Shown piece after piece: positions 1 to 18,073 of a stretch of DNA of 36,284 bases. The stretch covers positions 1-36,284 of the forward strand of contig JAMPYD010000004.1 in assembly GCA_023700845.1 (NCBI GenBank). The letters run 5' to 3'. The stretch's first letter is position 1. Every line of letters begins with the position of its first letter. The notes below the pieces were generated by a model that was given only the letters and a program-made list of their open reading frames with translations, searched no databases and was not told the origin of the DNA. The translations under genes were made by a program, and so were the position numbers. Origin of the DNA: Elusimicrobiota bacterium. GTDB taxonomy: Bacteria > Elusimicrobiota > Elusimicrobia > UBA1565 > UBA9628.

Positions 1-780
1 ACCCGCAACGGCGGCGGGGCAGGCGGCGGCGGCAGCTACGGCGGCGGCGGCGGCGGCGGCGGCGGCAGCGCGGCGCGGGCCTTCGGCCTGAGCTCGGGAG
101 CCGGCGGCGCCGGCGGAAGCACGGGTGTGGCCGCGGGCGGCGGGGGCGGCTCCGGAAACTACGGTGCGGGAGGCAACGGCGGCGCGGCCGGCAATCCCGG
201 CGGCGGCAACGGCTCCTGCAACGGCTGCACCGGCGTCGGCGGCGCGGCCGGCAGCGGCGCCTTCACCGGCACGGGCGGCGGCGCCTCGACCTTCAAGATG
301 AACAGCGGCGGCTCGGGCGGCGGCGGCGGCGGGCTATACGGCTCGGCCGCGCTGTCGCAGCTGTTCCTGGGCTCCGGCGGCGGCGGCGGCGGCGCCAGCA
401 ACGAGGGGCCCGTGAGCGGCGCGACCGGCGGCTCGGGCGGCGGCATCCTCCTCATCCTCTCGTCGAGCGTCATCAACTCGGGCACGATCGCCTCGAACGG
501 CGGCGCGGGCTCCAACGGCGGCGCCTGGAGCGCGCCTTACGGCGGCGGCGGCGCCGGCTCCGGCGGCAGCGTCCTCGTGCGATCTCTCGCCTTCTCCAAC
601 TCCGCGACCTTCACGGCGGTCGGCGGCGGCCCGGGGAGCGCGGGCGGCAACAGCGGCAACAACATGGGCGGCGCGGGCGGCGGCGGCGGCGGCGTGGGGC
701 GCGTGCGCATCGAGGCCGACGCGATCACCCAGGGAACGGTCAATCCCGCGCCGGCGACGGCGGGCGCCCCTTCCGCGGCC
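1..780 (+). repeat. Low-complexity Gly-rich region (GGC/GGN codon runs; GGGGGGG, GNGG, SGGSGGG)
   Basis: Runs of ggcggcggc at 1-65, 325-335, 375-395, 681-695; the protein is dominated by Gly, Ser, Ala and Asn. Confidence 0.9.
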
Positions 781-3700
781 GGCTCGGACTGGGTGTTCTT
801 CGACAACCCCTCGCCCGCGGACGGCGCGACGCTCGCCGCCACGCTCCTTCCCGGCTCGGACGCGGCCGGCTCCTACGCGGAGAGCGACCCGACGCCCAAC
901 AACCCGAACCTGATCGCCGACGGCCAGGAGGGCGAGTGGGATTTCGCGCTCGACCCCGTGAACACCGTCTCGGGCCGCTACTACCTGCGCATGACCCGCG
1001 CCTCCGCCACGCCTTTGACGGGCTACACCAATCTCGCGATCATCGACGCGCGCGTGCCCCCCTCGGCCGTCGACGACCTGTCGGCGGCCCCGGTGGAGGG
1101 CAGCTCGACGACGCTCCTCCTCTCCTGGTCGGCGCCGGGCGACGACGGCGACACCGGCGCTCTCCTCGCCGGCTCTTCCTACTACATCCAGCATTCGACG
1201 GACGCCGCTGTCGTCTTCTCCACCACGGCGGCTCAGGTCGTCCTGTCGACCGCGGGCGTCTATCCCGGCGTCCTCCAGCAGCACGCGCTCACCGGTCTCA
1301 GCGGCAACACGACCTACCATCTGCGCGTGTGGACGGCGGATCCCGCGGGCAACCTCTCGGCCCTGTCGAACGGGGCCACGACGGTGACGATGTCTCCGGC
1401 GGTGAGCGCGGCGCGCGTGGATTCGGTTCTGCTCTCCAGCGTCACGGCGAACTGGTCCCCTCTGCCCGACGCGTCGGTGTCCGGCTCCTCGAACTCCGCG
1501 CAGGGCTACGTGCTTGAGGCCTCCACGGCCGCGGATTTCTCCGGCGTCGTCGGCTCCTCCCGGACGCTCGGCGTGAGCCTCAGCACCTTGACCATCGCGG
1601 GCCTGGCCGGCGACGCGACCTATTATTTCCGCGTCGGTTCGCTGAACTTCGCCTCCACGGCGCATTACTCGCTGGCGGGCTCCACCTACGTCGCGCCTTA
1701 CGCCGTGGCGGACGCCATCATCGCCGGCCAGTCCACCGGGACCTGGTATTCCTCGAGCTCCTTCACGTTCTCCTCCAGCTTCGCGGGGGCCGCCTACTAC
1801 CGGGTGGTCTTCGACGCCAACGCGGGCCACTCCTGGACGGGGACCGAGGCGCGCTGGGATCCTCCGGGCGCTCTCACGGTCCAGGCCGCCGACGGCCAGG
1901 GCTGGTACCTCCACGCCCTCCCCCACGACGCGGGCGGCGCCCCCGGAGTCTCCCGCGACATCGGCCCGTTCTGGCGGGACGGGACCCCGCCCGCCGCGTC
2001 GGCTTTCCGTTCGTACGATTCGACGGCCGGCGTCCTCGGCGAGACCCAGGTCAACGACCTGACCGCGGGCGTCACGGTCCAGGTCACCGTCTCGGACCTC
2101 CTGGCCGGCATGCGTTCTTCTCCGGTGGCGCGCGTCTTCGGCTTCGAGAGCGCGGGCCTTCCCACGGGCTGGACGACCGGCGGCGACGCGAATTGGAGCG
2201 CGCAGACGGCGATCGTGTACGCGGGGACCTCCTCCATCCGCTCCGGCGGCATCGGCGCGGACCAGTCGACCTACCTGGAAACCTTGCTGACGACCCTCGG
2301 CGGCTACACCACCTTCTATCGCCGCGTCAGCTCACAGAGCGGCGGCGACTACCTGGAGTTCTACATCAACGGCAGCCTCCAGGGGAGCTGGAGCGGCGAG
2401 AACCCCTGGACCGTCTCCGTCTACGCGGTCCCCGCCGGCACGGCGGCCTTTCGCTGGCAGTACATCAAGAACGGCTGGGAGAGTTCGGGCAGCGACGCCG
2501 CCTGGCTCGACGCCGTGTCCCTGCCGCCGGTGGTCGCCTTCAGCGCGCGCTATACGCGGGACGCCGGCGCCACCTGGACCGATCTGAGGTCGACGAGCTC
2601 CCTGACCGGCCCGTACCTGTCGCTGACGGGCTCGGACGGCTCCCTGGCCGGGGAGACGCTGAAGATACTGGGCCTGCAGCTGAACTTCTCGACGAACGCC
2701 GCGACCTGCGCCGCCGCTTCGCCCTGCGGAGCCACGAACCAGGTCTACTTCACGGCCGAGGACGCCGCCGGCAACTCCCGCGAGAGCGGCCCCTACGCGG
2801 TGCTCGTCGCCACGACCCCGAGCGCGCGCGACGTCTCCTCCCCCTTCTCCACCGGCACCTGGTCCTCCGCCGCGGCCGTGCCGTTCGAGTCCACCTTCTC
2901 GAGCGCCGCGTATTACCGCTACTTCTGGGACACCGCCGCCTCTCACTCCTGGACGGAGACGGAGACGATCTGGAGCGCGCCGGACGGCCCATTGTCGTTG
3001 GCGGCCACCATCGACAGCCAGGATTGGCACCTGCACGTCCTGCCCTACAACGTGCTCGGCTCCTCCGGCGCGCCTCGCGCCTTCGGCCCCTATTGGACGG
3101 ACGCGGCTGCGCCGGCCGGCTCCGGCTTCGATCACATCAGCTCCACGGGCGGCGCGCTCGGCGAGAGCCAGCTGACGACGCTCATGGCGGGGGCCACGGT
3201 CCGCCTGACCGTGACGCAGGACTCCTTCAGCGGTCTGCTCCTCTCCACGACCGCCGTGCCCGGCTACGCGGCCTACGCCCCGGGCGGGGCCGGCTCTCTC
3301 TTCACCAACGACGGAGGCGCGAGTTGGGTCGCCTTCTCCTCGGCCGCGAGCTATTCGGGCTCCTTCGACGAGTTCCGCGCCCTGGCCGTGTATCAAGGGA
3401 AGCTTTACGCGGGGCAGGGCTCGGGCGGAGGGGGCGGTGACGTCTACGCGTGCGCGCCGGCCACGGGCGGTTCTTCCACCGCGTGCGAGGCGGGCGACTG
3501 GACGCTGAGCGCCAACAACGCGCACAGCGCGGTCAACGCCCTCGCCGTGTTCCGCGGGCGTCTCTACGCCGGCCTCGGCTCCAACGCCGGCAACGACGAC
3601 ATACAGGTCTACGACGGAGCGGCGTGGGCGAGCAGCTACGACAGCAACCTCGGCATCGTCAACGCGATCCATGCGCTCGCGGAGTACAAGGGCAAGCTCT

Positions 3701-6700
3701 ACGCGACGCGCGGCGGCGCCGCCGCCGGGAACGGAGATGTGCTCGTCTGCGACCCCGCGCTCACCGGCGCGGCGGATGTCTGCGACCCGGGGGATTGGTC
3801 GTTCGCCTATGACGGCGCGCGCCTGGAGTTCCGCTCTCTCTCGGTCTTCAACGGCCTTCTCTACGCCGGGCAGGGCTCCGCCGCCGGCGACGGCGACATC
3901 TACGTCTGCCGGCCGGGGGCCACGGGCGGCCAAGAGACCTGCGAGAACGGCGATTGGAGCCTCAGCCGCGACGGGGCGTCGGGTTCGGTCTACGCCCTCG
4001 AAGCCTTCGGCGGGAGGCTCTACGCCGGCCTGGGCTACGCCGCGGGGCAGGGAGACATCTACGCCTGCGACCCCGCGCTGACGGGCGCGGCGCACGTCTG
4101 CGACGCGGCCGACTGGAGCCGCGACTACGACGGGGCGACGGCCTCGGTCCTCAGCTTGAAGGCGTACAAGGGCTTCCTGTTCGCCGGAACGGGGAGCGCC
4201 GCGGGCGACGGCGACCTCAAGGTCAAGATCGGTCCGGCGTGGAAGCCGGTCCTCGACGGCGCCCAGGAGACCGTCTCCGCCCTGATGCCTTTCGAGGGCG
4301 ATCTCTACGCGGGTCAGGGGCTCTACAACCCCGACGGCCGGGTCGTGCGCCTGACGCCTTGGGTCTCCTCGACGGCGCTGACGGGCGCCGACGGCACGAC
4401 CGCGGCGCAAAGCGTCTCGGCGCTGATCCCCGCTTTGGCGGCCTCGCCGGACACCACGGTGTGCGGCGGGGTCTCGACGTGCACGGCGCGCAACCAGATC
4501 GTCTTCGCCGTCTCCGACCTGGCGGGCGGCGTCGCGCAGATCGGGCCCTTCGCCGTGATCGCCTCCTCGACGGCCTACGCCGACGAGGTCGCCGGGCCGG
4601 CGACCGGGACGTGGCTGACGACGAGCACCATGTCGTTCACGAGCGCCTTCGCCCGAACGGCCTACTACCGTTACGCGTGGGACACCTCGGCCTCGCATGC
4701 CTGGACCGAGGCCGAGGCGCGCTGGGATCCCGCGGCGGGGATCACCGTGCAGGCCGCGCCCGGGGGGCAGGGTTGGCACCTGCACGTGCTGCCTTACAGC
4801 CTCACCGACGGCTCCGGCACGCCGCGCGACCTCGGGCCGTTCTGGTCGGACGGCGCGCCCCCCGCGGCCTCGGCGTTCCGCCTGTACAGCTCGAGCGGCG
4901 GCCTCATGGGCGAAAGCCAGGCCATCGACCTGATCGGCGGCGCGACGGTGCAGATAAGCCTTCAGGACCTGGGCAGCGGCCTTCTGTTGAGCACGGGCTC
5001 CCTCCCCGGCGCGGCTCCCGCCTCGGGCGGGCCCGGCGTCGTTTTCTCCACGGACGCCGGGCGCACCTGGAGCGCGATGAGCGCCCCGGTCCTCGCTCGC
5101 AGCGACGGGAACTCCTGGGTCACGTTGGCCGAGTACAGCGACCGCCTGTACGCGGGTATGGGACCGGGAGCGGGCGCGGGCGACACCTACTCGTGCAATC
5201 CCGCGGCCACCGGCGACGCCGCCGTCTGCGAAGCGGCCGACTGGAGCCTGTCGCGCAGCGTCAGCTACGACATCGTGAACGCCGCGGCCGTGTTCAACGG
5301 CAAGCTCTATCTCGGCTACGGCAACGATGCCGGCGAGGGCGACATCGAGGTCTTCGACGGCGCGGCCTGGAGCAACTCGTACAACGGCTCGCAATCCAAC
5401 ATCTACGCCCTCGCCGTCTTCCGCGGACGCCTCTACGCCGCTCAGGCGGGCTCCGCCGGCACGGGCGACGTGCTGGTCTGCTCGCCGGCGGCGACCGGGG
5501 ACGCCCAGACCTGCGACGCCGGAGACTGGAGCGTCGCGCTCGACGGGGCCGGCTCCAACGCCTACAGCCTGGTGGCGCTCAACGGCGTGCTCTATGCCCA
5601 GACCGACGACGCCTCCGGGATACTCCGGCTGCTCGCCTGCACGCCGGGAGCCACGGGCGAGGCGGACATCTGCGACGCGGGGGACTGGTCCGTCGGTTAC
5701 GCGTCGCAGGGCAGCTACAACAACGGTCTGATCGCCCACGACGGCAAGCTGTTCCGCAGCGAGTACAACACCGGAAGGATCCTCGTCTGCGACCCTTCCC
5801 GGAGCGGGCGCGCGGAAATCTGCGAGAGCGGCGACTGGGCCACGGAGTACGACGGGGCCGACAGCAACAACTACTACTTCGGCAGGTCCGGCGGGGACCT
5901 GTTCGCCGGACCCCTGAACGGCAATTACATCGTGAAGCGCTCCAGCGGAGTCTGGCGGCAGGCCGGGTCCGTTCCCGGCAACGTGCGTTCGCTTCAGTCC
6001 TTCAACGGCCGGCTCTACGCGGGAGACTCCGGCGCCGACGTCTACCTCTTCTCCCCCCTCGTCTCCTCGATCACCGTGACCGGGGCGGACGGGAGCACCG
6101 CCCTGGAAACCTTGACGGCCGTCCTGCCCACGCTGGTGAACTCCACCAACAGCCAGACCTGCGGCGGCGGCTACCCCTGCGGCGCGACCAACCAGGTCGC
6201 TTTCACGATCATGGACGCCGCGGGCAACGCGCTCTGGGCCGGCCCCTACGCCGTGATCGTCGCGACCACGGCCGACGCGGCCGCGGTCGTGGGGCCGTCG
6301 ACGCGGGCCTGGGTCAGCTTCGCGACGTTCACCTTCAACTCCAGCTTCGTCAACGCGGCGTACTACCGCCGCGCCTGGGAGGCCTCCCCCTCCCACGCCT
6401 GGACCGAGGCCGAGACGCGCTGGGACTCCGTCGACGGCCCGCTCCATCTCGAGGCGTCCGCGCCAGGGACCGAGTACTACCTGCACGTCCTTCCGTACAA
6501 CGTCCTGGACTCCTCCGGCGCGCCCCGCGTCCTCGGGCCCTACCGGCGAGACGACGCCGCGCCGGCCTTCTCCGGCTTCCGCGTCGTGAGCTCCACGGGC
6601 GGCCTCATGGCCGAATCCCAGCTCGTCGACCTGGCCGCCGGCGTCACGGTGCAGATCCAGGTCCAGGACCTCCTCAGCGGCCTGCACGTCGCGACGGCCG

Positions 6701-9700
6701 CGGCGACGGGCGAGCTGGCCGCGCCGGCCGGAGGCTACGGCGTCATCTACACCAACGACGCGGGCGCCACCTGGACGGCGTTCGCCTCCTCGGTGAGCGC
6801 GCAGACGATCTTCTACGGCTTCGAGAGCCTCGCCGTCTTCCGGGGGCGCCTCTACGCGGGGCAGGGCACGAACGCGGGCGAGGGCGACATCCTCGTCTGC
6901 GACCCGGCGGTCACGGGCGAGCCCGGGGACTGCGAGTCGGGGGATTGGTCGTCGTCCCGTCCCACCGCGTACTACAGCGCGCACGCCATGCAGGTCTTCA
7001 ACGACCGGCTCTACGCGGCCTACGGCGGCTGGGGCGGGAGCGGCTACGGCGACATCGAGGTCTTCGACGGCGCCTCCTGGACGATGAGCCACGACGGGCC
7101 CGACGACCGCGTCGTCGCCCTGGCCGCCTACGGGGGCAAGCTCTACGCGGGCCGGACCAACGGCTGGAACATAGGCGGCGGAGACGTGATCGTCTGCGAC
7201 CCGGCCTTCACCGGCGCGGCGGCGGTCTGCGACAGCGGAGACTGGTCCATGTCCTACGACGGGACGGGCTACCAGGCCAACGCCCTCGTCGAGTTCTCCG
7301 GCCGCCTCTACGCCGGCTTCGGCTCGCCCAACGACGGGACCGGCGACATCCGCGTCTTCGACGGGAAGACCTGGACGATGAGCCACGACGGCGCCTTCGA
7401 CCGCGTGAACGCCTTCGCCGTCTACGGCGGACGGCTCTACGCCGCGGCGGCCGGCGCGGCCGGCGGCGAGGGCGACATCATGGTGTGCGACCCCCGCGCG
7501 ACCGGACTGCCGGCGTCGTGCGAGGCCGGTGATTGGAGCGTGTCGCACGACGGGACCACGGCCGAGGTCAAGTCCCTCTCGGTCTTCAACGGGTTCCTGT
7601 TCGCGGGCCTCGGCGCGGCCGCGGGCGACGGCGACCTCCTGGTCTTCGACGGGGCCGCCTGGAGGCGGGTGTACAACGGGACCTCCGACGCCCTCACCTC
7701 CCTGGCCGCGTTCAACGGGCGGCTGTACGCCGGCTCCCGGGCCGCCGGGCAGGCCCGCGTGCTGCGGCTGACCCCCGCCGTCTCCTCCGTCACCTACACG
7801 GCCGCCCAAGGCTCGACCGGCGCCGAGACGCTGTCGGCCGTGATCCCGACGTTCGCCGATTCGCTGAACTCGGCCGTCTGCGGCGGGACCGCTCCGTGCA
7901 CCGCGACGAACCAGGTCTACTTCGCGGCGGGAGACCTCGCGGCGAACGCCGTCCACGGGCCCTACGCCGTCCTCATCGACACCTCGGTGACCGCGAGCGC
8001 GGACGACGTCGTCTCCGTCCGCTCGACCGGCACCTGGTACGCGACGAGCTCCTTCACCTTCACCTCCTCCTTCGCCGGCGCGGGCTACTACCGCTTCGTG
8101 TTCGACGCGAACGCCGGCCACGCCTTCGACGACTCCGAGCCGGTGTGGGGCTCCGGCACGCTGAGCACCGGCCCGGCCTCGCCGGGCGGCGCGTTCTACC
8201 TCCACCTGAAGCCCTTCACGCTGGCGGACGTCGCGGGGGCGACGCGCGACCTCGGCCCGTTCCGCTTCGACCCGAGCACGCCGGTCCTGTCGGGCTTCGC
8301 CGCCCTCGACCTCGGGGGCGCGCCGTTGGCCGAGGGCGCGCCGCTGCGCCTCGCCTCGGGGGTCACCGTCCAGATCCTCGTGCAGGATGGCTTGAGCGGT
8401 CTCAGCGTCCGTCCGAGCCTCGCCTCCGACCGGTTCGAGACCGGCCTGCCGGAGCGCTGGGTCTCCACCGGCCCGACGGCCTGGTACGCGACGGCGGATT
8501 CGGCCAACAGCGGCGCCTTCAGCCTTCGGGCGGGGACCATCACGCACGGCCAATCGACGGGCGTCGAACTGGTCCGGCGCGTCCGCGCCGGCACGCTGAC
8601 CTTCCAGCGCCGCGTCAGCTCCGAGGCGGACTTCGACGCCCTTCGCTTCTTCATCGACGGACAGCTCCAGGGCTCGTGGAGCGGGACGGTCGCCTGGGGC
8701 CAGGTCTCCTTCGCCGTGACGGCGGGCACGCGCTCGTTCCGCTGGAGCTACGAGAAAGACGGCACGCTCAGCCAGGGCCTGGACAGCGCCTGGATCGACG
8801 ACGTCGTCTTCCCCGGCTCGGCCTATGTCGTGTCGTACTCGAGCGACGCGGGCGCGACCTGGCGCGTCGCGTCCGCCACCGTGACGACGGCCTTGCCTTA
8901 TGTCGCGCTGACCGGCGCCGAAGGCTCGACCGCCCAGGAGACGCTGACCGCCTACGGGCTCGACTTCGCCCACGCCCCGAGCCCCGTGACCTGCGCCGGT
9001 ACCGCCCCCTGCGCCGCGACGAACCAGGTGATCTTCAGCGCCGCGGACCGGACGGAGAATGAGAGCTCCGGGCCGTACGCGGTCAGCGTCGACACCGAGA
9101 CCTACCCCGGCTGCGAGATCACCAGGAACGTAGGCGCGGGCATGCCCTACGCGACGATCTCGGCGGGCGTAGCGGCCCTCCCGTCCACCCTGACGGGTCA
9201 TTCTTGCGTGGTCATCCGCGACGGCGCGAACTACGCCGAGCAGGTGACGGTGCGGGGCTTCACCAACAACGGCTCGTCGATAACGATCTTCGCGGACCCC
9301 GCCACGGGCCTGCGGCCGGTCGTCGATCCGCCGGCGTTCGCGACGGCCGCGTTCGTCGTCGCGAACGCGAGCGTCAGCCTCCAGGGCATCGACGTCCGGC
9401 CGACGGCGCAGTCCGTGAGCTACGGCGTTCTCGTCTCCTCGGCCTACGTGAGCCTGAGCAGCGTCAACGTGCAGGACGCCGGGGGCATGATCACCGAAGC
9501 GGGCATCGTGCTCGGCGCGGACTCGCAGTACGGCGCGGTGTCGTACGCGAGCGCGACGGTGACGGAGGCATACGGCATTCTGATCCTGGGCCGGCACAAC
9601 GTCGTCTCCTTCAGTTCGATGACGAACAGCTCCAACTCCGACAACACCGGCAAGCGCGCGCTGGCGATCCTGGGCTCGGGAGCCTCGAGCAACACCGTGA

Positions 9701-12102
9701 ATAGGGCCTACCTTGTCGGCCAGCTGGGCGACGCGGCGATGTTCGGGCCTCAGGCCGCGTTCAACACGCTCTCCAACAGCACGGCCGTCTCCTTCGGCTC
9801 GAGCATGGCCGGGCTTTATATCAACGACAGCGACAGCAACACCGTCTCGGGGAATTATTTCGAGAACATGATCGGGTACGGCGTCTATCTCGGCGCCGGC
9901 GCGCAGTATAACACGATCAGCCAGAGCACGATGATCAGCGCCGCGGCCTCCTTCAAGGCGCTCATGTTGAACGGCGCGTCGTCGAATACGGTGACGGGCT
10001 CCTTCATCCGCAACACGGCGGGGCACGGTGCCTCGCTGCAGTCCGGCGCCAGCCTCAACGTCATCAGCCAAAGCACCGTGTCGGCGGACGCCGGAGCCTA
10101 TGCCGCCGTCTACGTCGCCGGTTCCGACAGCAACACCTTGACCGGGAACATGATCGACGGAGGCCCGGGCAACGCGCTCTATCTCGATACGGGCTCCGAC
10201 TACAACACGGTGAGCCTGAGCACGCTTGCGACCTCCGGCGTGAACCGCGCGGGGCTGGTGCTCCAAGCCGCGACGAACAACCTGATCCTGCGCGTCCACG
10301 CCCAGAGCCTGGGCGGTTCCGGCGGCTATGTCGCCAATGCGAATTTCAACTCGATCCGCCTCAGCACGTTCGTGAGCGTGACGGCCGGCTATTTCGGCCT
10401 GCTGCTCGACAACGCCAACGACAACGGGGTCTCCGACGCTTCGATCCGGAGCTCGAACGGGACGGCGCTGCAGATCTACGGCGCGCGCAACGTCATCAGC
10501 CGCGCGACGATGACCGCCGGCGATCACGGCCTCTATCTGGTCGCCGCCGCGACGACCGCCGTCTACGACTCGTACATCCAGGGCTCGACGGCCGCGTACG
10601 TCAGCGGCTCGACCGGGACGATGATCGGCGGCTCGATGCTCGCGGCGACGGACGCGGCGGGCTCGGCGCTGGCCCTGGATGGGGGCAGCGTGAACCTGAC
10701 GATCGCCACCAGCACCCTGCTCGCTCCGTCGCAAGGGCGCGGCCTGGCGCTGAACCCCGGCAGCGTCGGCGTGGTGAGCATCGGCAGCGTCACCTTCGGC
10801 GGCGCCGGCCGCGGCGTCGAGATCTCCACGCAGGGCGCGAACTTCACCCTCTCCGTGGACTCGGTCACCTTCCGGGGCCTGGCATCCGGCGCGACCGCGA
10901 TCCACTTCCTGGGCGGGGCCTTCGTCTCGACGATCACGCTCGCCTACTTCGAGGACGCATCGGCCGCGCGCAACGTGAGCGCCGCGGCGCTCGACGTCGC
11001 CTCGCGCCTGACGATGCGCTCGTCGAGAGGCCCGCGCCAGGGCCCGGCGTTCGAGATGGACCCGAACGCGCTCGTCGATTGGCCTGACCTGCTGCCGCCC
11101 GGCGCGCCCTCGATCTTCACGGTGGGCCTGTCCAGCATCGGCGTGCAGTACGGCCTTGCCGGCGCGGACGCGTACGTCGTCGAGGCGTCGACGATGGCGG
11201 ACTTCAGCGGCGTGGTGCTCGCCTCCGCGACTCTGGCCCAGGCGGCGCGGCTCGCGCCGCAGACGCTCGATCCGAACACGACCTATTTCCTGCGCGCGGG
11301 CTCGGTGTGGGGCGGGTCGACGATCTACGCGCAGGCCGTCCTCTCCACCGCGACCCTCTCCGCGCTGGTCCAGGGAACGACGGTCTACCGGATCGACGTC
11401 ACGAGCATGATCGTCAACTGGCTGCCGCTCCCGCTCGCGCCTCCGGACGCCTCGTCGATGTCCTCCTCCGGCTACATCCTCGAAGTCTCCACCCGTTCCG
11501 ATTTCGTCCCTCTCTGGACCTCGTCCGCGACTCCCAACGCGGCGCTCTCGACCTTGACCGCCTCGGGCCTCCTCGGCGGCGACACCTACTACTTCCGCGT
11601 CGGCTCGCTGAACTGGAACGGGATCCCGAACTACGCCGCCGCGGTCTCCACCTTGATGCCGGTCCAGCTCGGCGTCGAGCTCACCACGCACACGCTGAGC
11701 CTCCCGGGCCTGACCGCCATGAACACGACGATCTCGATCAGCACGAGCATCGTCGTGACGAACACCGGCAACGTCCTCGAGACGTACGCCCTGAGCGCGA
11801 CGACGATCACGCCCTCGAGTCCATGGAAGATCGGCGCATCGCCCGCGGTGGACGTGTTCACGCTGTGGACCGTCGTCAACAGCACGCAGGCCGGCTCGAT
11901 CGACTTCACGGCGGGACACAAGCTATCCGATGCCGAGACTTCATGCGGCGAATCGGTGTTCACGATGGGCAACCAAAGCTGCGTGCAGGTGCCGATCGGA
12001 CAGTCCCGCACGCTCTGGTTCCAGATTTCGACCCCCCTTGCGACGAGCACGGGGGCGGCGCAGGACGTTCGGATCACCGCGCGCGCGGTGAAGGATCCTT
12101 AA
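1..12102 (+). CDS. Giant secreted multi-domain surface protein, 5'-truncated by the window edge: Gly-rich region, FN3-like domains, five large modules with propeller or MAM-like inserts, parallel beta-helix, FN3-like domains, C-terminal Ig-like domain
   Basis: Frame 1 is open from base 1 (TRNGGGAGGGGSYGGG...) to the TAA at 12100-12102. The listed ORF start at 127 is an internal GTG. Repeats are readable in the translation. Confidence 0.93.
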   Translation, partial: TRNGGGAGGGGSYGGGGGGGGGSAARAFGLSSGAGGAGGSTGVAAGGGGGSGNYGAGGNGGAAGNPGGGNGSCNGCTGVGGAAGSGAFTGTGGGASTFKMNSGGSGGGGGGLYGSAALSQLFLGSGGGGGGASNEGPVSGATGGSGGGILLILSSSVINSGTIASNGGAGSNGGAWSAPYGGGGAGSGGSVLVRSLAFSNSATFTAVGGGPGSAGGNSGNNMGGAGGGGGGVGRVRIEADAITQGTVNPAPATAGAPSAAGSDWVFFDNPSPADGATLAATLLPGSDAAGSYAESDPTPNNPNLIADGQEGEWDFALDPVNTVSGRYYLRMTRASATPLTGYTNLAIIDARVPPSAVDDLSAAPVEGSSTTLLLSWSAPGDDGDTGALLAGSSYYIQHSTDAAVVFSTTAAQVVLSTAGVYPGVLQQHALTGLSGNTTYHLRVWTADPAGNLSALSNGATTVTMSPAVSAARVDSVLLSSVTANWSPLPDASVSGSSNSAQGYVLEASTAADFSGVVGSSRTLGVSLSTLTIAGLAGDATYYFRVGSLNFASTAHYSLAGSTYVAPYAVADAIIAGQSTGTWYSSSSFTFSSSFAGAAYYRVVFDANAGHSWTGTEARWDPPGALTVQAADGQGWYLHALPHDAGGAPGVSRDIGPFWRDGTPPAASAFRSYDSTAGVLGETQVNDLTAGVTVQVTVSDLLAGMRSSPVARVFGFESAGLPTGWTTGGDANWSAQTAIVYAGTSSIRSGGIGADQSTYLETLLTTLGGYTTFYRRVSSQSGGDYLEFYINGSLQGSWSGENPWTVSVYAVPAGTAAFRWQYIKNGWESSGSDAAWLDAVSLPPVVAFSARYTRDAGATWTDLRSTSSLTGPYLSLTGSDGSLAGETLKILGLQLNFSTNAATCAAASPCGATNQVYFTAEDAAGNSRESGPYAVLVATTPSARDVSSPFSTGTWSSAAAVPFESTFSSAAYYRYFWDTAASHSWTETETIWSAPDGPLSLAATIDSQDWHLHVLPYNVLGSSGAPRAFGPYWTDAAAPAGSGFDHISSTGGALGESQLTTLMAGATVRLTVTQDSFSGLLLSTTAVPGYAAYAPGGAGSLFTNDGGASWVAFSSAASYSGSFDEFRALAVYQGKLYAGQGSGGGGGDVYACAPATGGSSTACEAGDWTLSANNAHSAVNALAVFRGRLYAGLGSNAGNDDIQVYDGAAWASSYDSNLGIVNAIHALAEYKGKLYATRGGAAAGNGDVLVCDPALTGAADVCDPGDWSFAYDGARLEFRSLSVFNGLLYAGQGSAAGDGDIYVCRPGATGGQETCENGDWSLSRDGASGSVYALEAFGGRLYAGLGYAAGQGDIYACDPALTGAAHVCDAADWSRDYDGATASVLSLKAYKGFLFAGTGSAAGDGDLKVKIGPAWKPVLDGAQETVSALMPFEGDLYAGQGLYNPDGRVVRLTPWVSSTALTGADGTTAAQSVSALIPALAASPDTTVCGGVSTCTARNQIVFAVSDLAGGVAQIGPFAVIASSTAYADEVAGPATGTWLTTSTMSFTSAFARTAYYRYAWDTSASHAWTEAEARWDPAAGITVQAAPGGQGWHLHVLPYSLTDGSGTPRDLGPFWSDGAPPAASAFRLYSSSGGLMGESQAIDLIGGATVQISLQDLGSGLLLSTGSLPGAAPASGGPGVVFSTDAGRTWSAMSAPVLARSDGNSWVTLAEYSDRLYAGMGPGAGAGDTYSCNPAATGDAAVCEAADWSLSRSVSYDIVNAAAVFNGKLYLGYGNDAGEGDIEVFDGAAWSNSYNGSQSNIYALAVFRGRLYAAQAGSAGTGDVLVCSPAATGDAQTCDAGDWSVALDGAGSNAYSLVALNGVLYAQTDDASGILRLLACTPGATGEADICDAGDWSVGYASQGSYNNGLIAHDGKLFRSEYNTGRILVCDPSRSGRAEICESGDWATEYDGADSNNYYFGRSGGDLFAGPLNGNYIVKRSSGVWRQAGSVPGNVRSLQSFNGRLYAGDSGADVYLFSPLVSSITVTGADGSTALETLTAVLPTLVNSTNSQTCGGGYPCGATNQVAFTIMDAAGNALWAGPYAVIVATTADAAAVVGPSTRAWVSFATFTFNSSFVNAAYYRRAWEASPSHAWTEAETRWDSVDGPLHLEASAPGTEYYLHVLPYNVLDSSGAPRVLGPYRRDDAAPAFSGFRVVSSTGGLMAESQLVDLAAGVTVQIQVQDLLSGLHVATAAATGELAAPAGGYGVIYTNDAGATWTAFASSVSAQTIFYGFESLAVFRGRLYAGQGTNAGEGDILVCDPAVTGEPGDCESGDWSSSRPTAYYSAHAMQVFNDRLYAAYGGWGGSGYGDIEVFDGASWTMSHDGPDDRVVALAAYGGKLYAGRTNGWNIGGGDVIVCDPAFTGAAAVCDSGDWSMSYDGTGYQANALVEFSGRLYAGFGSPNDGTGDIRVFDGKTWTMSHDGAFDRVNAFAVYGGRLYAAAAGAAGGEGDIMVCDPRATGLPASCEAGDWSVSHDGTTAEVKSLSVFNGFLFAGLGAAAGDGDLLVFDGAAWRRVYNGTSDALTSLAAFNGRLYAGSRAAGQARVLRLTPAVSSVTYTAAQGSTGAETLSAVIPTFADSLNSAVCGGTAPCTATNQVYFAAGDLAANAVHGPYAVLIDTSVTASADDVVSVRSTGTWYATSSFTFTSSFAGAGYYRFVFDANAGHAFDDSEPVWGSGTLSTGPASPGGAFYLHLKPFTLADVAGATRDLGPFRFDPSTPVLSGFAALDLGGAPLAEGAPLRLASGVTVQILVQDGLSGLSVRPSLASDRFETGLPERWVSTGPTAWYATADSANSGAFSLRAGTITHGQSTGVELVRRVRAGTLTFQRRVSSEADFDALRFFIDGQLQGSWSGTVAWGQVSFAVTAGTRSFRWSYEKDGTLSQGLDSAWIDDVVFPGSAYVVSYSSDAGATWRVASATVTTALPYVALTGAEGSTAQETLTAYGLDFAHAPSPVTCAGTAPCAATNQVIFSAADRTENESSGPYAVSVDTETYPGCEITRNVGAGMPYATISAGVAALPSTLTGHSCVVIRDGANYAEQVTVRGFTNNGSSITIFADPATGLRPVVDPPAFATAAFVVANASVSLQGIDVRPTAQSVSYGVLVSSAYVSLSSVNVQDAGGMITEAGIVLGADSQYGAVSYASATVTEAYGILILGRHNVVSFSSMTNSSNSDNTGKRALAILGSGASSNTVNRAYLVGQLGDAAMFGPQAAFNTLSNSTAVSFGSSMAGLYINDSDSNTVSGNYFENMIGYGVYLGAGAQYNTISQSTMISAAASFKALMLNGASSNTVTGSFIRNTAGHGASLQSGASLNVISQSTVSADAGAYAAVYVAGSDSNTLTGNMIDGGPGNALYLDTGSDYNTVSLSTLATSGVNRAGLVLQAATNNLILRVHAQSLGGSGGYVANANFNSIRLSTFVSVTAGYFGLLLDNANDNGVSDASIRSSNGTALQIYGARNVISRATMTAGDHGLYLVAAATTAVYDSYIQGSTAAYVSGSTGTMIGGSMLAATDAAGSALALDGGSVNLTIATSTLLAPSQGRGLALNPGSVGVVSIGSVTFGGAGRGVEISTQGANFTLSVDSVTFRGLASGATAIHFLGGAFVSTITLAYFEDASAARNVSAAALDVASRLTMRSSRGPRQGPAFEMDPNALVDWPDLLPPGAPSIFTVGLSSIGVQYGLAGADAYVVEASTMADFSGVVLASATLAQAARLAPQTLDPNTTYFLRAGSVWGGSTIYAQAVLSTATLSALVQGTTVYRIDVTSMIVNWLPLPLAPPDASSMSSSGYILEVSTRSDFVPLWTSSATPNAALSTLTASGLLGGDTYYFRVGSLNWNGIPNYAAAVSTLMPVQLGVELTTHTLSLPGLTAMNTTISISTSIVVTNTGNVLETYALSATTITPSSPWKIGASPAVDVFTLWTVVNSTQAGSIDFTAGHKLSDAETSCGESVFTMGNQSCVQVPIGQSRTLWFQISTPLATSTGAAQDVRITARAVKDP
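1060..1695 (+). other. Two fibronectin type III-like domains in the giant protein
   Basis: PPSAVDDLSAAPVEGSSTTLLLSWSAPGDDG...YHLRVWTADPAGNLSALS, then VTANWSPLP...GYVLEASTAADF...TYYFRVGSLN. Confidence 0.75.
1708..2817 (+). repeat. Large module copy 1 (MAM-like insert)
   Basis: Starts ADAIIAGQSTGTWYSSSSFTFSSSFAGAAYYR, ends TCAAASPCGATNQVYFTAEDAAGNSRESGPYAVLVATT. Confidence 0.85.
2134..2532 (+). other. MAM/jelly-roll-like insert domain 1
   Basis: VFGFESAGLPTGWTTGGDANW...FYRRVSSQSGGDYLEFYINGSLQGSWSGENPW...FRWQYIKNGW...DAAWLDAVSLP; closely matches the copy at 8431-8823. Confidence 0.65.
2818..4572 (+). repeat. Large module copy 2 (propeller insert)
   Basis: RDVSSPFSTGTWSSAAAVPFESTFSSAAYYRYFWDT ... 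VCGGVSTCTARNQIVFAVSDLAGGVAQIGPFAVIASST. Confidence 0.85.
3373..4371 (+). repeat. Predicted seven-bladed beta-propeller A
   Basis: Seven tandem units with LAVYQGKLYAGQG, LAVFRGRLYAGLG, LAEYKGKLYATRG, LSVFNGLLYAGQG, LEAFGGRLYAGLG, LKAYKGFLFAGTG, LMPFEGDLYAGQG. Confidence 0.75.
4573..6270 (+). repeat. Large module copy 3 (propeller insert)
   Basis: ADEVAGPATGTWLTTSTMSFTSAFARTAYYRYAWDT ... TCGGGYPCGATNQVAFTIMDAAGNALWAGPYAVIVATT. Confidence 0.85.
5116..6069 (+). repeat. Predicted seven-bladed beta-propeller B
   Basis: Seven units: LAEYSDRLYAG, AAVFNGKLYLG, LAVFRGRLYAA, LVALNGVLYAQ, LIAHDGKLFRS, GRSGGDLFAG, LQSFNGRLYAG. Confidence 0.72.
6271..7986 (+). repeat. Large module copy 4 (propeller insert)
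   Basis: ADAAAVVGPSTRAWVSFATFTFNSSFVNAAYYRRAWEA ... VCGGTAPCTATNQVYFAAGDLAANAVHGPYAVLIDTS. Confidence 0.85.
6820..7788 (+). repeat. Predicted seven-bladed beta-propeller C
   Basis: Seven units: LAVFRGRLYAG, MQVFNDRLYAA, LAAYGGKLYAG, LVEFSGRLYAG, FAVYGGRLYAA, LSVFNGFLFAG, LAAFNGRLYAG. Confidence 0.75.
7987..9105 (+). repeat. Large module copy 5 (MAM-like insert)
   Basis: ADDVVSVRSTGTWYATSSFTFTSSFAGAGYYRFVFDANAGHAF ... TCAGTAPCAATNQVIFSAADRTENESSGPYAVSVDTET. Confidence 0.85.
8431..8823 (+). other. MAM/jelly-roll-like insert domain 2
   Basis: DRFETGLPERWVSTGPTAWYATAD...FQRRVSSEADFDALRFFIDGQLQGSWSGTVAWG...FRWSYEKDG...DSAWIDDVVFP. Confidence 0.65.
9106..10990 (+). repeat. Parallel beta-helix (NosD/pectate-lyase-like) domain
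   Basis: GAGMPYATISAGVAALP...GHSCVVIRDGANYAEQVTV followed by SNTVSGNYFEN, YNTISQSTMIS, SNTVTGSFIRN, NVISQSTVSA, SNTLTGNMIDG coils of about 24-25 aa. Confidence 0.8.
11380..11661 (+). other. FN3-like domain resembling the N-proximal FN3-like domain at about 1410-1690
   Basis: MIVNWLPLPLAPPDASSMSSSGYILEVSTRSDF...STLTASGLLGGDTYYFRVGSLNWNGIPNYAAAVST vs VTANWSPLPDASVSGSSNSAQGYVLEASTAADF...STLTIAGLAGDATYYFRVGSLNFASTAHYSLAGST. Confidence 0.7.
11662..12099 (+). other. C-terminal Ig-like domain of the giant protein, similar to the downstream 219-aa protein
   Basis: GVELTTHTLSLPGLTAMNTTISISTSIVVTNTGNVLETYALSATTITPSSPWKIGAS...LWTVV...RTLWFQISTPLATSTGAAQDVRITARAVKDP. Confidence 0.6.
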
Positions 12103-13720: not shown

Positions 13721-15646
13721 ATGGACCATAGTCCCCTCAAGAGGGGCATGCGGGCGCTCGCCGCCTTGGCCGCGGCGAGCTGGCTGCTGGCCGTTCCCGG
13801 TACGGGGACGGCTCGGGCCGCCGCGTCCGACTCCTTCACCGTCACGATCGTCCCTCGCGACGTCTGGCCCCCCACGCCCGTGACCGACCTGGTCGCGGTC
13901 CCGGGCGCGGAAGGCCAGATCCTGCTGCAATGGACGGCGCCGGATTCCAACTCGAACGCGCTCGGCACGCTGACGCCCGCGGCCGGCTACCTGATCCGGA
14001 TCGCGAGCTTCTCGGTCGCCTCCGTCGGGGGCAGCACGACGGCCTGGTGGGGCGCGGCGGCGGACGTGCGCGCGCTGCCGCCGCCGGCTCTGAGCGTCGT
14101 CCCCCCCGCTCCGGGAGCCCCGGGCGCCGCGGAGAACCTTCTGCTCAACCAGCTCGAGCCCGGCGTCACGGTCTACGCGATGCTCGTGAGCTCGGACACG
14201 GCCGGGCAGCTCTCCGACTCCGACCTCCCTTCGCGCACGCCGCTGGCCCAGGCCAACGCGCTCGTCTTCGACGCGGTCCCGCCCGCTCCCGCGTCGATCG
14301 CGGCGGCGCAGAACGGGATCGGCAGCGTTCTCGTCTCCTGGCCCGCTTCGCCGGCCTCCGACCGCGACTACTACCGGCTGCTCGTCGACTCCACGGCGCC
14401 GCGCGACTTCTCCGATGAATACGCCGTCCTGGTCGATTCGCCCGCCCTGACGGCGACCTTGACCGGCTTGGCCGCGGGCGTCTACGCTCTGCGCATCGCT
14501 GTCGTCGATAAAGGCCTGCCGTCGCACGCCGGGATCGCGCTCGCCAGCCCGGCGGCGAGCTCGACGACCGTGACCGTGGCCTCGAGCATTCTGCTGCCGC
14601 AGGCGCCGTTCGGGGTGGCCATGTCCAGCGCCGGCGCGGCGGTGACCGTGAGCTGGATGCCCGTGGAGCGCTACGAGGACGGCGCCGGCTTCGCCGATCC
14701 GACCGCGGCGCTGTCCTCGGAGCTCTCCGCCTACCGCGTCTATCGCGCGACCTCGGTCGTCGCCGGCGGCTGGACCCAGCAGATCCAGCTGTCGAGCTCG
14801 ACCTTGATCTGGACCGATCTCGCGGGCGGCCCGCAGTATTTCTATCACGTGCGCGCGGAGAACGAAAGCGGCCTGTCGGCGCGCTCGGTGTTCCGTTCCG
14901 TCGGGACGCTGTCGGCCTTCGTGATCGCGCCCGACGACCGCAGCTACTTCGAGGTGCCCTCGCAGAGCGTGCTTCCGATCGAGGGGACCGCCGGCCAGGC
15001 TCCGACGGCCTACCTGGCCGCGGCCGCGGCGCGTCCCCAGGATCTGGGCGGGCGGGTGGTCAAGTCGATCGAGTTCACGGCGATGCAGGGCGGGCAGACT
15101 TTGGCGCCGAATTTCTCGCTCCCGGTCATGGGCCGCCTGAAGCTGCGCTACGAGATGAACGCGTCGTCGGTGGTGCCCTCGGGCATGTCGGCGGCCGCCG
15201 TGCCGGCCAACCCGAGCAACATCGGCGTCTACTGGTACAACGGCTCGGCCTGGGTCCAGATGTACGGACGGCTCGATCAGACGGACCAGTCGCTGAACCT
15301 TGAGACGAAGTATTTCGGCATATACCAGCTGCGCATCGTCGAGCGCGCGACCGACTTCGCTTTCGACCAAGCGGGCGTCTCGAACCGGTTCGTCACGCCC
15401 AACGGCGACGGACGCAACGACTCGGTCGTGTTCTCCTACGACAACCCGAAAGACGTCTCGGTCCGCGCGCGCATCATGGACCTGAAGGGGCGCGTGATCG
15501 TCCCCGAGCTGCCCCAGGGTCCGGTCACGAACAGCCGCGTGTGGGACGGCCGCGCCGGCGGCGCCTACGTGCCGGGCGGGGTCTACCTGTACCAGATCGA
15601 AGGTGAGGGCCGGACCTTCAGCGGAACGATCGTGATTCTGAAATAA
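13721..15646 (+). CDS. Secreted FN3-containing protein with C-terminal FlgD-Ig / gliding-motility-associated (T9SS type B-like) domain
   Basis: aggagcacgATG; signal peptide; FN3-like repeats; C-terminus NRFVTPNGDGRNDSVVFSYDNPKDVSVRARIMDLKGRVI...WDGRAGGAYVPGGVYLYQIEGEGRTFSGTIVILK. Confidence 0.85.
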   Translation: MDHSPLKRGMRALAALAAASWLLAVPGTGTARAAASDSFTVTIVPRDVWPPTPVTDLVAVPGAEGQILLQWTAPDSNSNALGTLTPAAGYLIRIASFSVASVGGSTTAWWGAAADVRALPPPALSVVPPAPGAPGAAENLLLNQLEPGVTVYAMLVSSDTAGQLSDSDLPSRTPLAQANALVFDAVPPAPASIAAAQNGIGSVLVSWPASPASDRDYYRLLVDSTAPRDFSDEYAVLVDSPALTATLTGLAAGVYALRIAVVDKGLPSHAGIALASPAASSTTVTVASSILLPQAPFGVAMSSAGAAVTVSWMPVERYEDGAGFADPTAALSSELSAYRVYRATSVVAGGWTQQIQLSSSTLIWTDLAGGPQYFYHVRAENESGLSARSVFRSVGTLSAFVIAPDDRSYFEVPSQSVLPIEGTAGQAPTAYLAAAAARPQDLGGRVVKSIEFTAMQGGQTLAPNFSLPVMGRLKLRYEMNASSVVPSGMSAAAVPANPSNIGVYWYNGSAWVQMYGRLDQTDQSLNLETKYFGIYQLRIVERATDFAFDQAGVSNRFVTPNGDGRNDSVVFSYDNPKDVSVRARIMDLKGRVIVPELPQGPVTNSRVWDGRAGGAYVPGGVYLYQIEGEGRTFSGTIVILK

Positions 15647-15716
15647 AGCCCCTTTAATCGATTTCGCCGGCCCGAAACACGGATTTCGCATGCTTTCTCC
15701 ATAATAGGGGCAGCCC

Positions 15717-16076
15717 ATGCCCTTTCTGAGATCCGCCTTCCTTGCCTTCAGCCTGTGCGTTTCCGCCGCTTTGCCGGGGCCCGCTCCGCTGGGATTCGCT
15801 TTCGCAGGCGCGACGAACCGTGTCATTACTCCCAACGGGGACACCCTTAACGACAGCGTCACCTTCCGCTTCACCAATCCGAGGGAGTCGAGCGGCTTCA
15901 TCCGGATTTACGACCTGCGCGGGCGGGAGCTGCGCAACCTGTCGATCTCGATCGGCGACACCTCTAAGGCCTGGGACGCGCGCGCCAACGGGCAGATCGT
16001 GGCCGCCGGCGTCTACATCTACGTCCTGAGCATCGAGAGCCGCACCTACTCGGGGGCTGTCGTGGTGGTCCGATGA
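15717..16076 (+). CDS. Stand-alone secreted FlgD-Ig/T9SS CTD-like domain (119 aa)
   Basis: Signal peptide followed by NRVITPNGDTLNDSVTFRFTNPRESSGFIRIYDLRGRELRNLSI...AWDARANGQIVAAGVYIYVLSIESRTYSGAVVVVR. Confidence 0.8.
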   Translation: MPFLRSAFLAFSLCVSAALPGPAPLGFAFAGATNRVITPNGDTLNDSVTFRFTNPRESSGFIRIYDLRGRELRNLSISIGDTSKAWDARANGQIVAAGVYIYVLSIESRTYSGAVVVVR

Positions 16077-18073
16077 GAGCCGCGCTCGCGGTCCTCCTCG
16101 CCGTCATTTTCGCCGCGGCCCCCGCGCGCGCGGCGTTCGAGGAGACCGGGGCGGGCGCCCGCGCCCCGGGGATGGGCGACGCCTTCACCGCTCTGGCCGA
16201 CGATGCCTATTCGATCCATTACAACCCCGCCGGGCTGGCGCAGCTGGAGCGGCCGCAGTTCGCCGCGGCGTACTCCAAGCTCTACGCCGGGCTGTCCGAC
16301 GGCACGGACATCGGCTTGTCCCAATTGGCTTACGCGCACCCTCTCGCCCGCGGGCGCCAAGGTACTTTGGGCCTGTCCTGGGAGCGCTTCTCCCTGAGCG
16401 GCCTCTATCAGGAGCAGGTGCTGGCGGCGGCCTACGGTCGGCAGGTCCTGGGAGGGACGCAGGGCGGCAAGCTCTATCTCGGCGCGACCGCCAAACTCCT
16501 CGCGCGCTCCTTCAATCGAGGTGCCGAGGCCTCCAACGCCTGCAGCGGCCTCAACTGCTCGCTGGGGGCGGATCCCGTCTTGTCGGGCTCGAATTCGACC
16601 AGCGCCCCCGATCTGGACCTCGGTCTGATCTACCGTTTTCCCCGCCGCCTGCAGGCGGGGCTGAGTCTTCAGCACGCGCTGCGGCCCAACGTGGCCTTCG
16701 CCGGCGACGACAAGCTCGAGCGGGCGCTGAACGCCGGCCTCGCGTACAAGTCGCTGTGGATGAGCCTCGCCGGTGAGCTGAAGCTGCGCCGGGCGGCCGA
16801 CGGCGCGACGGCTCGGGACGCGATCTTCGCGGCCGAGCGCTACTTCCCCTCGCTCGACTACGGGCAGTTCGGCGTACGCGGCTCGATCGGGTTCGGCAGC
16901 GCTGACTGGCGGCAGTTCACCGTCGGCGCCTCATACCGGATCAACAAGATCCAGGCCGACTATGCCTACCTGATCCCGATCGGCGGCGTCCAAGGCCAGT
17001 CGGGCTCTCACCGCGTCGGCCTGAGCTTTCATTTCGGCGCGCCTTCGGCCGACGAGGAATTGGCGCAGGAGATGCTCGAGCAGAAAAAGCGCATGACGGG
17101 GGGCCTGCCCGCCGTCTCTACCGGCGCCCCCGGATTCGGCTACGAATACGCCGAACAGGCCCGCCCGCAGGATCTCTCCGACCCGCGGCTCGACGCCGTG
17201 CGCGCGTTGATCCTTCAGCGCCGCTATCGCGCGGCGAAGGTCGCCTTCGACGCGCTCGCCAAGGCCCAGCCCATGGGCCCCGGCCTCGAGCGCCTTGGCC
17301 TGCGTCTCGATGACGCGGCGTATCACTACGCCGACCTTCCCGAGCCCGCCGCCCGCCCCGACAAAGGCGTGGTCGACGCGATCGCGGCCTATCTCAATGG
17401 GGAGGATCGCGAGGCCCTTCTGCACGCTTCCTACGCCCTCTCGCTCAGCGGCGAGGATGCGCGCATCGAGTCGTTCGTGCAGACCCTGGAGAAGAAGACC
17501 GGGCTCAAGGCCGACCGCCTCCCAGCCGGGCATTCGCGCGGGTTCATCGACGAGCTCCTGTGGCGCGTCGAGTTCGCGCACACGCGCGGAAACTCGGCCC
17601 AGGTCGAGGCCTTGCTGACAGACGTCATCCGCCTCGAACCCGAGAACATAACCGCGCTCTCCCGACTGGGCTCCCAACGCTATCTGCTGGGGCGCTACCT
17701 CGAGGCGGTCCAGTCCTGGGAAGCAGCGGAAAAGATCGAGACCCGCGAGCGGGAGCTCGTGTCGCTGCGCGCGTACCTCAAGCTCGCGCGCGAAGCGGCC
17801 TCGGGCAAGTCCCTGCCCGGCGGCTTGGCGCCCGCGGCCTCCGCGCCCGAGCCGTCGCTCGAGCGCGACGGCCTCCCGCGTCGCGCCTCCCCCGTCCCGA
17901 ACGGAGACCCCCGTCAGATCGAGGCCCTGTACCAGAAGGGCGTCGAGCATTACGCGCGCGGCGAGTACCTGCAGGCCAGCGCGATGTTCCTGCGCATCCT
18001 GCGCATCGACCCCGGAAATGCGCCGGCCCGCAAGGCGCTCGACCGGATCGAGCGCGCCCGCCCCGCGAGATGA
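16073..18073 (+). CDS. PorV/UPF0164-like outer-membrane barrel fused to C-terminal TPR region
   Basis: ATGA overlap; signal peptide; AAFEETGAGARAPGMGDAFTALADDAYSIHYNPAGLAQL is typical of this family; C-terminal QIEALYQKGVEHYARGEYLQASAMFLRILRIDPGNAPARKALDRI is TPR-like. Confidence 0.82.
   Translation: MRAALAVLLAVIFAAAPARAAFEETGAGARAPGMGDAFTALADDAYSIHYNPAGLAQLERPQFAAAYSKLYAGLSDGTDIGLSQLAYAHPLARGRQGTLGLSWERFSLSGLYQEQVLAAAYGRQVLGGTQGGKLYLGATAKLLARSFNRGAEASNACSGLNCSLGADPVLSGSNSTSAPDLDLGLIYRFPRRLQAGLSLQHALRPNVAFAGDDKLERALNAGLAYKSLWMSLAGELKLRRAADGATARDAIFAAERYFPSLDYGQFGVRGSIGFGSADWRQFTVGASYRINKIQADYAYLIPIGGVQGQSGSHRVGLSFHFGAPSADEELAQEMLEQKKRMTGGLPAVSTGAPGFGYEYAEQARPQDLSDPRLDAVRALILQRRYRAAKVAFDALAKAQPMGPGLERLGLRLDDAAYHYADLPEPAARPDKGVVDAIAAYLNGEDREALLHASYALSLSGEDARIESFVQTLEKKTGLKADRLPAGHSRGFIDELLWRVEFAHTRGNSAQVEALLTDVIRLEPENITALSRLGSQRYLLGRYLEAVQSWEAAEKIETRERELVSLRAYLKLAREAASGKSLPGGLAPAASAPEPSLERDGLPRRASPVPNGDPRQIEALYQKGVEHYARGEYLQASAMFLRILRIDPGNAPARKALDRIERARPAR

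Follow-up and report, generated by a model that had tools for sequence, protein, structure and literature searches.

The locus described here raises the question of how a giant protein can carry complete foreign domains within the copies of one repeated module, and what such a protein would do. The window, which means the whole stretch of 36,284 nucleotides analysed, is an entire contig of a 2.7 Mb MAG (71% complete) from an Elusimicrobiota bacterium, and the related contigs retrieved by sequence were placed in Elusimicrobiota. The giant protein is encoded on the forward strand (1-12102); its 5′ end is lost at the contig start (open), and it has at least 4033 aa. Its layout comprises a glycine-rich N-terminus, FN3-like domains, five modules (aa 570-3035), a NosD/beta-helix block, and FN3-like domains with a final domain. 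On the opposite strand, a 3195-aa ORF is likely a high-GC shadow ORF. With a probability of about 0.7, we consider that the giant protein is best explained as an adhesin-like display scaffold built of split Ig domains and possibly exported by a type-IX-like route.

Pfam, NCBIfam, and PHROGs gave no name to the host domain, the jelly-roll, or the propeller of the giant protein. In addition, a PDB sequence search returned weak local matches only, and the host has neither a solved-structure name nor a curated-family name. Because plain self-BLAST of the whole giant protein listed no pairs, profile methods were used. The profiles for the window search were trained without the window and without its orthologue, and they found five N-halves and five C-halves of the host alternating along 1708-9105 (i-E 2e-14 to 8e-23 for the N-halves and 1e-21 to 2e-29 for the C-halves in all five modules), with no match of the host profiles in shuffled frames. 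Thus, the five copies proposed in an earlier note on this DNA were recovered, and the order M-P-P-P-M was confirmed in the giant protein, where M is a jelly-roll insert (MAM/CBM-like), P is a seven-blade propeller, and L, which is found in relatives, is LamG. However, what the note took for one host module consists of two domains, namely domain A (STGTW...AYYR...HSW...GPFWxD, about 95 aa) followed by an Ig-like domain B of about 143 residues, and the interruption lies in the second only. Domain A is a separate domain that is present in 46 of 170 host copies, and in other proteins an FN3-like domain often stands in its place. Therefore, the interrupted host is B alone rather than A plus B.

The coordinates of the modules (all on the forward strand) are as follows, with model positions referring to a 143-position profile built from five uninserted host copies of other Elusimicrobiota. 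In module 1, domain A (1717-2001, profile) is followed by the host N-half (1978-2130, model positions 1-51), a jelly-roll insert of MAM/CBM/cleaved-adhesin type at site 1 (2131-2541; profile, AF2, and Foldseek), and a host C-half (2536-2817, positions 51-143) that opens with the Asp-box hairpin (..YTRDAGATW, 2542-2577; scoring matrix and sequence). Module 2 has domain A at 2830-3123 (profile), a host N-half at 3100-3327 (positions 1-69) that includes the Asp-box DGGASW (3310-3327), a seven-repeat propeller at site 2 (3328-4365, repeat analysis), and a C-half at 4366-4566 (positions 76-141). The same arrangement is seen in module 3, with domain A at 4582-4872 (profile), the N-half at 4849-5070 (positions 1-70) including DAGRTW (5053-5070), a seven-repeat propeller at site 2 (5071-6060, repeat analysis), and the C-half at 6061-6270 (positions 75-143). 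For module 4, domain A lies at 6283-6573 (profile), the N-half with DAGATW (6757-6774) at 6550-6774 (positions 1-76, also AF2), the seven-repeat propeller of site 2 at 6775-7758 (AF2, Foldseek, and repeats), and the C-half at 7759-7983 (positions 68-142). Finally, module 5 includes domain A (8005-8292, profile), an N-half (8269-8418) whose match to positions 1-86 ends in a spurious run into the insert, a jelly-roll insert at site 1 (8419-8826, profile), and a C-half (8827-9096, positions 47-142) with DAGATW at 8845-8862. A jelly-roll of about 137 aa precedes DAGATW in copies 1 and 5, and a seven-repeat propeller follows the equivalent element in copies 2-4, as had been claimed. D-x-G-x-(T/S)-W is present in all five copies, and the residue two before D is T in copy 1 and either S or T in the other four.

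The halves break at different points of the profile. In the window copies, the break falls at about model positions 47-51 with a jelly-roll insert and at about 68-76 with a propeller; over all copies, the C-half starts at a median of 49 for LamG, 51 for MAM-like inserts, and 78 for propellers. The two sites thus lie about 25 residues from each other and flank YS-x-D-x-G-x-x-W. To see how folds are distributed over these sites, 170 distinct host copies were classified. These are not independent, since some of the loci overlap and a single MAG with several giant genes supplies about half of all propellers. Of the copies, 117 held propellers, 32 LamG, 10 MAM/CBM-like inserts, and 2 PA14, and 9 were empty. 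The labels were corrected by hand, 18 automatic cases (12 'propellers' at site 1 and 6 'other') being fixed by reading the sequences. Propellers were at site 2 in 117 of 117 cases, and jelly-roll, LamG, and PA14 inserts were at site 1 in 44 of 44. Furthermore, Pfam confirmed LamG (PF13385) and PA14 inserts in examples, and Foldseek and Pfam showed that the inserts (jelly-roll, LamG, PA14, and propeller) are complete folds of ligand-binding type.

Structure models were made from these MAG data, which have open contig ends, with one model per module type (M, P). AF2 of module 4 (23 rows; pLDDT 83, pTM 0.86) gave a propeller with host strands before and after it. The seven repeats form a closed ring with four strands in blades 1-6 and three in blade 7, the latter from the C-terminal end, and Foldseek matched it to WD40-type and kelch-type propellers. 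For the jelly-roll insert, Foldseek listed gingipain K1/K2 cleaved-adhesin domains, several CBMs, and meprin. However, AF2 of module 1 was poor and unusable outside the insert (pLDDT 59, pTM 0.44), and thus site 1 rests on sequence. In the AlphaFold check of single modules suggested in the note, the host halves of module 1 were not folded together. The claim of two different insertion sites in one scaffold, each with a whole foreign domain, is upheld by the profile breaks and by matrix scores given below. On balance, we favour an Ig scaffold with two sockets, where the fold class of an insert would decide which socket it occupies; amplified into arrays, the scaffold would form giant surface fibres in several Elusimicrobiota families. 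If true, nature would have provided a display scaffold with two loading sites, each specific to its own fold class.

How the inserts came to their present order can be judged from relatives. A same-genus orthologue, about 68-71% identical, retains M-P-P-P-M, and the host copies of the window and the orthologue pair position by position with starred support (five positions). However, the mirror symmetry that the note had emphasised holds for the window gene and this one orthologue and fails as a general design. For instance, the orders in GWA2_62_23 are PPPMPPPMPPM, PPPM, PPPPM, and PPPPPPPMP, and other relatives have LLPL (in six proteins of one family), long P runs, or the mixed order PPPPLPLoP. 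The symmetry is therefore a local arrangement, and the insert orders of relatives rule it out as a rule.

The note had also suggested cassette-style domain exchange; in the form considered here, recombination would swap inserts between hosts at a high rate. The M hosts are scattered (8 changes for 10 rows in the host tree, 6 changes in a second tree) and are split over more than one clade in the best tree. Moreover, window host 1 (M) shares 54% identity with host 3 (P) and 48% with host 5 (M), and one host family includes PA14, LamG, MAM-like, and empty hosts. However, insert types are clustered on the host tree far beyond shuffles (17 changes against a shuffled mean of 49.6). The three P hosts of the window group together as a clade (bootstrap 88, SH-aLRT 96), as do the LamG hosts (99/96), both in trees that include domain A. 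In addition, the AU test rejects neither a single M clade (p 0.053) nor a single site-1 clade (p 0.070), and no insert type crosses sites. Since insert types are clustered and the window P hosts form a clade, whole-module copying is favoured, and frequent exchange of cassettes is doubtful. According to the host trees, inserts mostly move along with their hosts; whole-module copying accounts for most of the data, with some exchange possible.

As to what the array does, we propose that the host is a single Ig-like beta-sandwich with a permissive loop on each side of the Asp-box hairpin. Loop 1, before the hairpin, would take jelly-roll or lectin-like folds (CBM/MAM-like, LamG, PA14), and loop 2, after it, would take the seven-bladed propeller. 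In either case the insert would form a complete, looped-out fold, after which the chain would come back and complete the Ig sandwich; therefore, the inserted domain would project sideways from the Ig/FN3 rod. With sideways-projecting domains on a rod, the array would most likely act at the cell surface as a display fibre or multivalent adhesin, with each projecting domain serving as a binding module. An adhesin function is the most likely one from precedent and domain types, and the giant protein is probably located at the cell surface.

The genes downstream bear on export. They include, on the same strand as the giant ORF, a small secreted-type protein, an fn3 protein (13721-15646, forward strand) with a weak match to the T9SS type A/B C-terminal sorting domain (E 6.5e-5, under the cut-off), and a PorV/PorP-family-like outer-membrane barrel with TPR (16073-18073, forward strand; E 1.4e-18 to the PorV family, under its cut-off). 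The orthologue has all three in synteny. For the giant protein itself, Pfam and NCBIfam scans detected no T9SS C-terminal sorting domain. Meanwhile, an SprA-like gene was present in 6 of 19 same-genus genomes, with none found in the genome of the window, which is 71% complete as noted. PorV-like genes number 7-26 per genome, which rules out their adjacency as strong evidence of export. Because they are so common, export of the giant protein by a type-IX-like route is put forward as a suggestion from the gene content.

A different role is conceivable, in which the giant protein would be a secreted enzyme or a structural matrix protein, and the propellers and jelly-rolls would be catalytic or purely structural. 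Secreted glycoside hydrolases also contain CBM-like and LamG modules, and the NosD/beta-helix block lies downstream of the module array. However, Pfam and NCBIfam scans matched no catalytic family in the giant protein, and we regard this role as unlikely next to that of an adhesin-like scaffold.

The scaffold reading also depends on the nature of the element in front of the propellers. Asp-boxes are typical of propellers, and single Asp-boxes are known in Ig-like domains (PMC2716378); the host element YS-x-D-x-G-x-x-W fits the Asp-box consensus S-X-D-X-G-X-T-W, and 125 of the 170 host copies match the form [ST]x[DN]xGxx[WFY]. Because Asp-boxes also occur in propellers, the pre-propeller element was tested for host origin using a scoring matrix for the hairpin built from 50 non-propeller copies. 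The pre-propeller segment scored a median of 18.3 bits, compared with 2.8 for the highest-scoring window within the propeller of the same copy, and it outscored the propeller-internal best in 111 of 117 copies. If there were a single true site, DAGATW in the propeller copies would be the closing strand of the propeller, which would then sit at site 1 with the host hairpin lost. Besides the general association of Asp-boxes with propellers, this reading would be suited by the AF2 model of module 4, where the strand that follows W164 fits as the fourth strand that blade 7 lacks. However, the element scores far closer to the host hairpin than to any propeller-internal hairpin; it is aligned as a continuation of the N-half in the profile of uninserted hosts, with the C-half starting again past it; and the third strand of blade 7 is already supplied by the C-terminal repeat in AF2. 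A single site is thus quite improbable, and by these scores the element before the propeller is host and not propeller. Going by the strand count of the model, the strand that directly follows the Asp-box tryptophan probably has a second role as the last outer strand, with which the propeller ring is closed. Known Asp-boxes differ from the host hairpin, which has an insertion site on either side.

The remaining requirement is that the two halves of the host belong together. In relatives, nine uninserted host copies join the halves within 2-7 residues, and therefore the two halves are one domain. Furthermore, the uninserted-host profile spans both halves once and in order in all five window copies, in two pieces each, and both the sequence profiles and the AF2 strand order of module 4 show a sandwich that is discontinuous in sequence and completed after the insert. 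The strand pattern of the AF2 model points to Ig topology for the host. Modules as beads on a string (domain A, small domain, insert, small domain), a reading prompted by the unfolded halves of module 1 in AF2 and by a host that lacks any curated family, are very improbable against these joined copies and the single, ordered profile matches in 5 of 5 copies. The host profile was found in 31 of 295 genomes and 14 of 89 genera of the phylum.

Among known systems, split Ig domains from which CBM, PA14, or other binding domains project are well established for RTX adhesins (PMC10865825, PMC12077191). As in FrhA, AhLap, and MpIBP, an Ig-like domain is split by a complete carbohydrate-binding or PA14 domain within a giant surface protein of beta-sandwich repeats. 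Unlike in RTX adhesins, there are here two alternative loops around the Asp-box, one of them for propellers only, the module is repeated in arrays, and the phylum is Elusimicrobiota. In addition, FrhA is split after one short strand (12 residues), whereas about 50 or about 70 residues precede the split here. RTX nonapeptide repeats and a type I secretion signal were not among the Pfam and NCBIfam families of the giant protein, and the available text of the two papers describes neither a propeller insert nor a second socket for the split Ig domains of RTX adhesins. With SprB-SprF, a type IX adhesin with a PorP/SprF partner (PMC9143113), the locus shares a giant repetitive surface protein and a nearby gene for a FadL-family barrel, and it differs in that the giant protein has no detected sorting tail. 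Elusimicrobiota are enriched in proteins of more than 5000 aa, to which a survey gave no functional category (PMC11573180); the present results offer one domain logic for some of them, so that part of these huge proteins becomes readable as rod domains plus split Ig domains with whole binding-type modules. This would also help to read adhesin sequences that standard annotation misses, since Pfam and NCBIfam cover neither host, jelly-roll, nor propeller, and scaffold loops that accept domains of about 137 to 400 residues are of interest for protein engineering. Of the known kinds, the split Ig domain of RTX adhesins comes nearest; relative to it, the propeller insert and the second socket would be new, extending split-domain display to another phylum and to propellers.

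In the orthologue of the giant protein from the same genus (locus L031), we found that the beta-helix block located 3′ of the module array (window 9100-10650) is present as two tandem copies. The orthologue has a length of 4647 aa, whereas the giant protein in the window has 4033 aa. In addition, the module array is flanked by two FN3-like segments (window 1297-1692 and 11266-11658) that are similar to each other, and the identity between a window copy and the opposite copy in the orthologue was ~44%. Furthermore, the giant gene is already under way where the window contig and the L031 contig start, close to the glycine-rich N-terminal part (window 1-780). That both contigs start inside this gene points to GC-rich repeats as the likely place where the assembly was interrupted. 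Meanwhile, an open frame of 3195 aa lies opposite the giant gene (window 2332-11919, minus strand), and it is probably a shadow ORF caused by the GC content of ~71%.

Among the relatives sharing the host domain, the giant proteins of one family (loci L037, L038, L040, L043, L046, and L047) kept the order LamG-LamG-propeller-LamG. LacPavin MAG_67_8 (loci L032-L034 and L072-L086) contained several giant genes with long stretches of propeller-bearing hosts, up to 11 of them within one 20 kb stretch.

Downstream of the giant gene, window 13721-18073 includes a match to a T9SS-type sorting domain and a gene for a PorV-like barrel, and SprA-like genes are present in some genomes of the same genus. 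Thus, Elusimicrobiota may possess a type-IX-like system.
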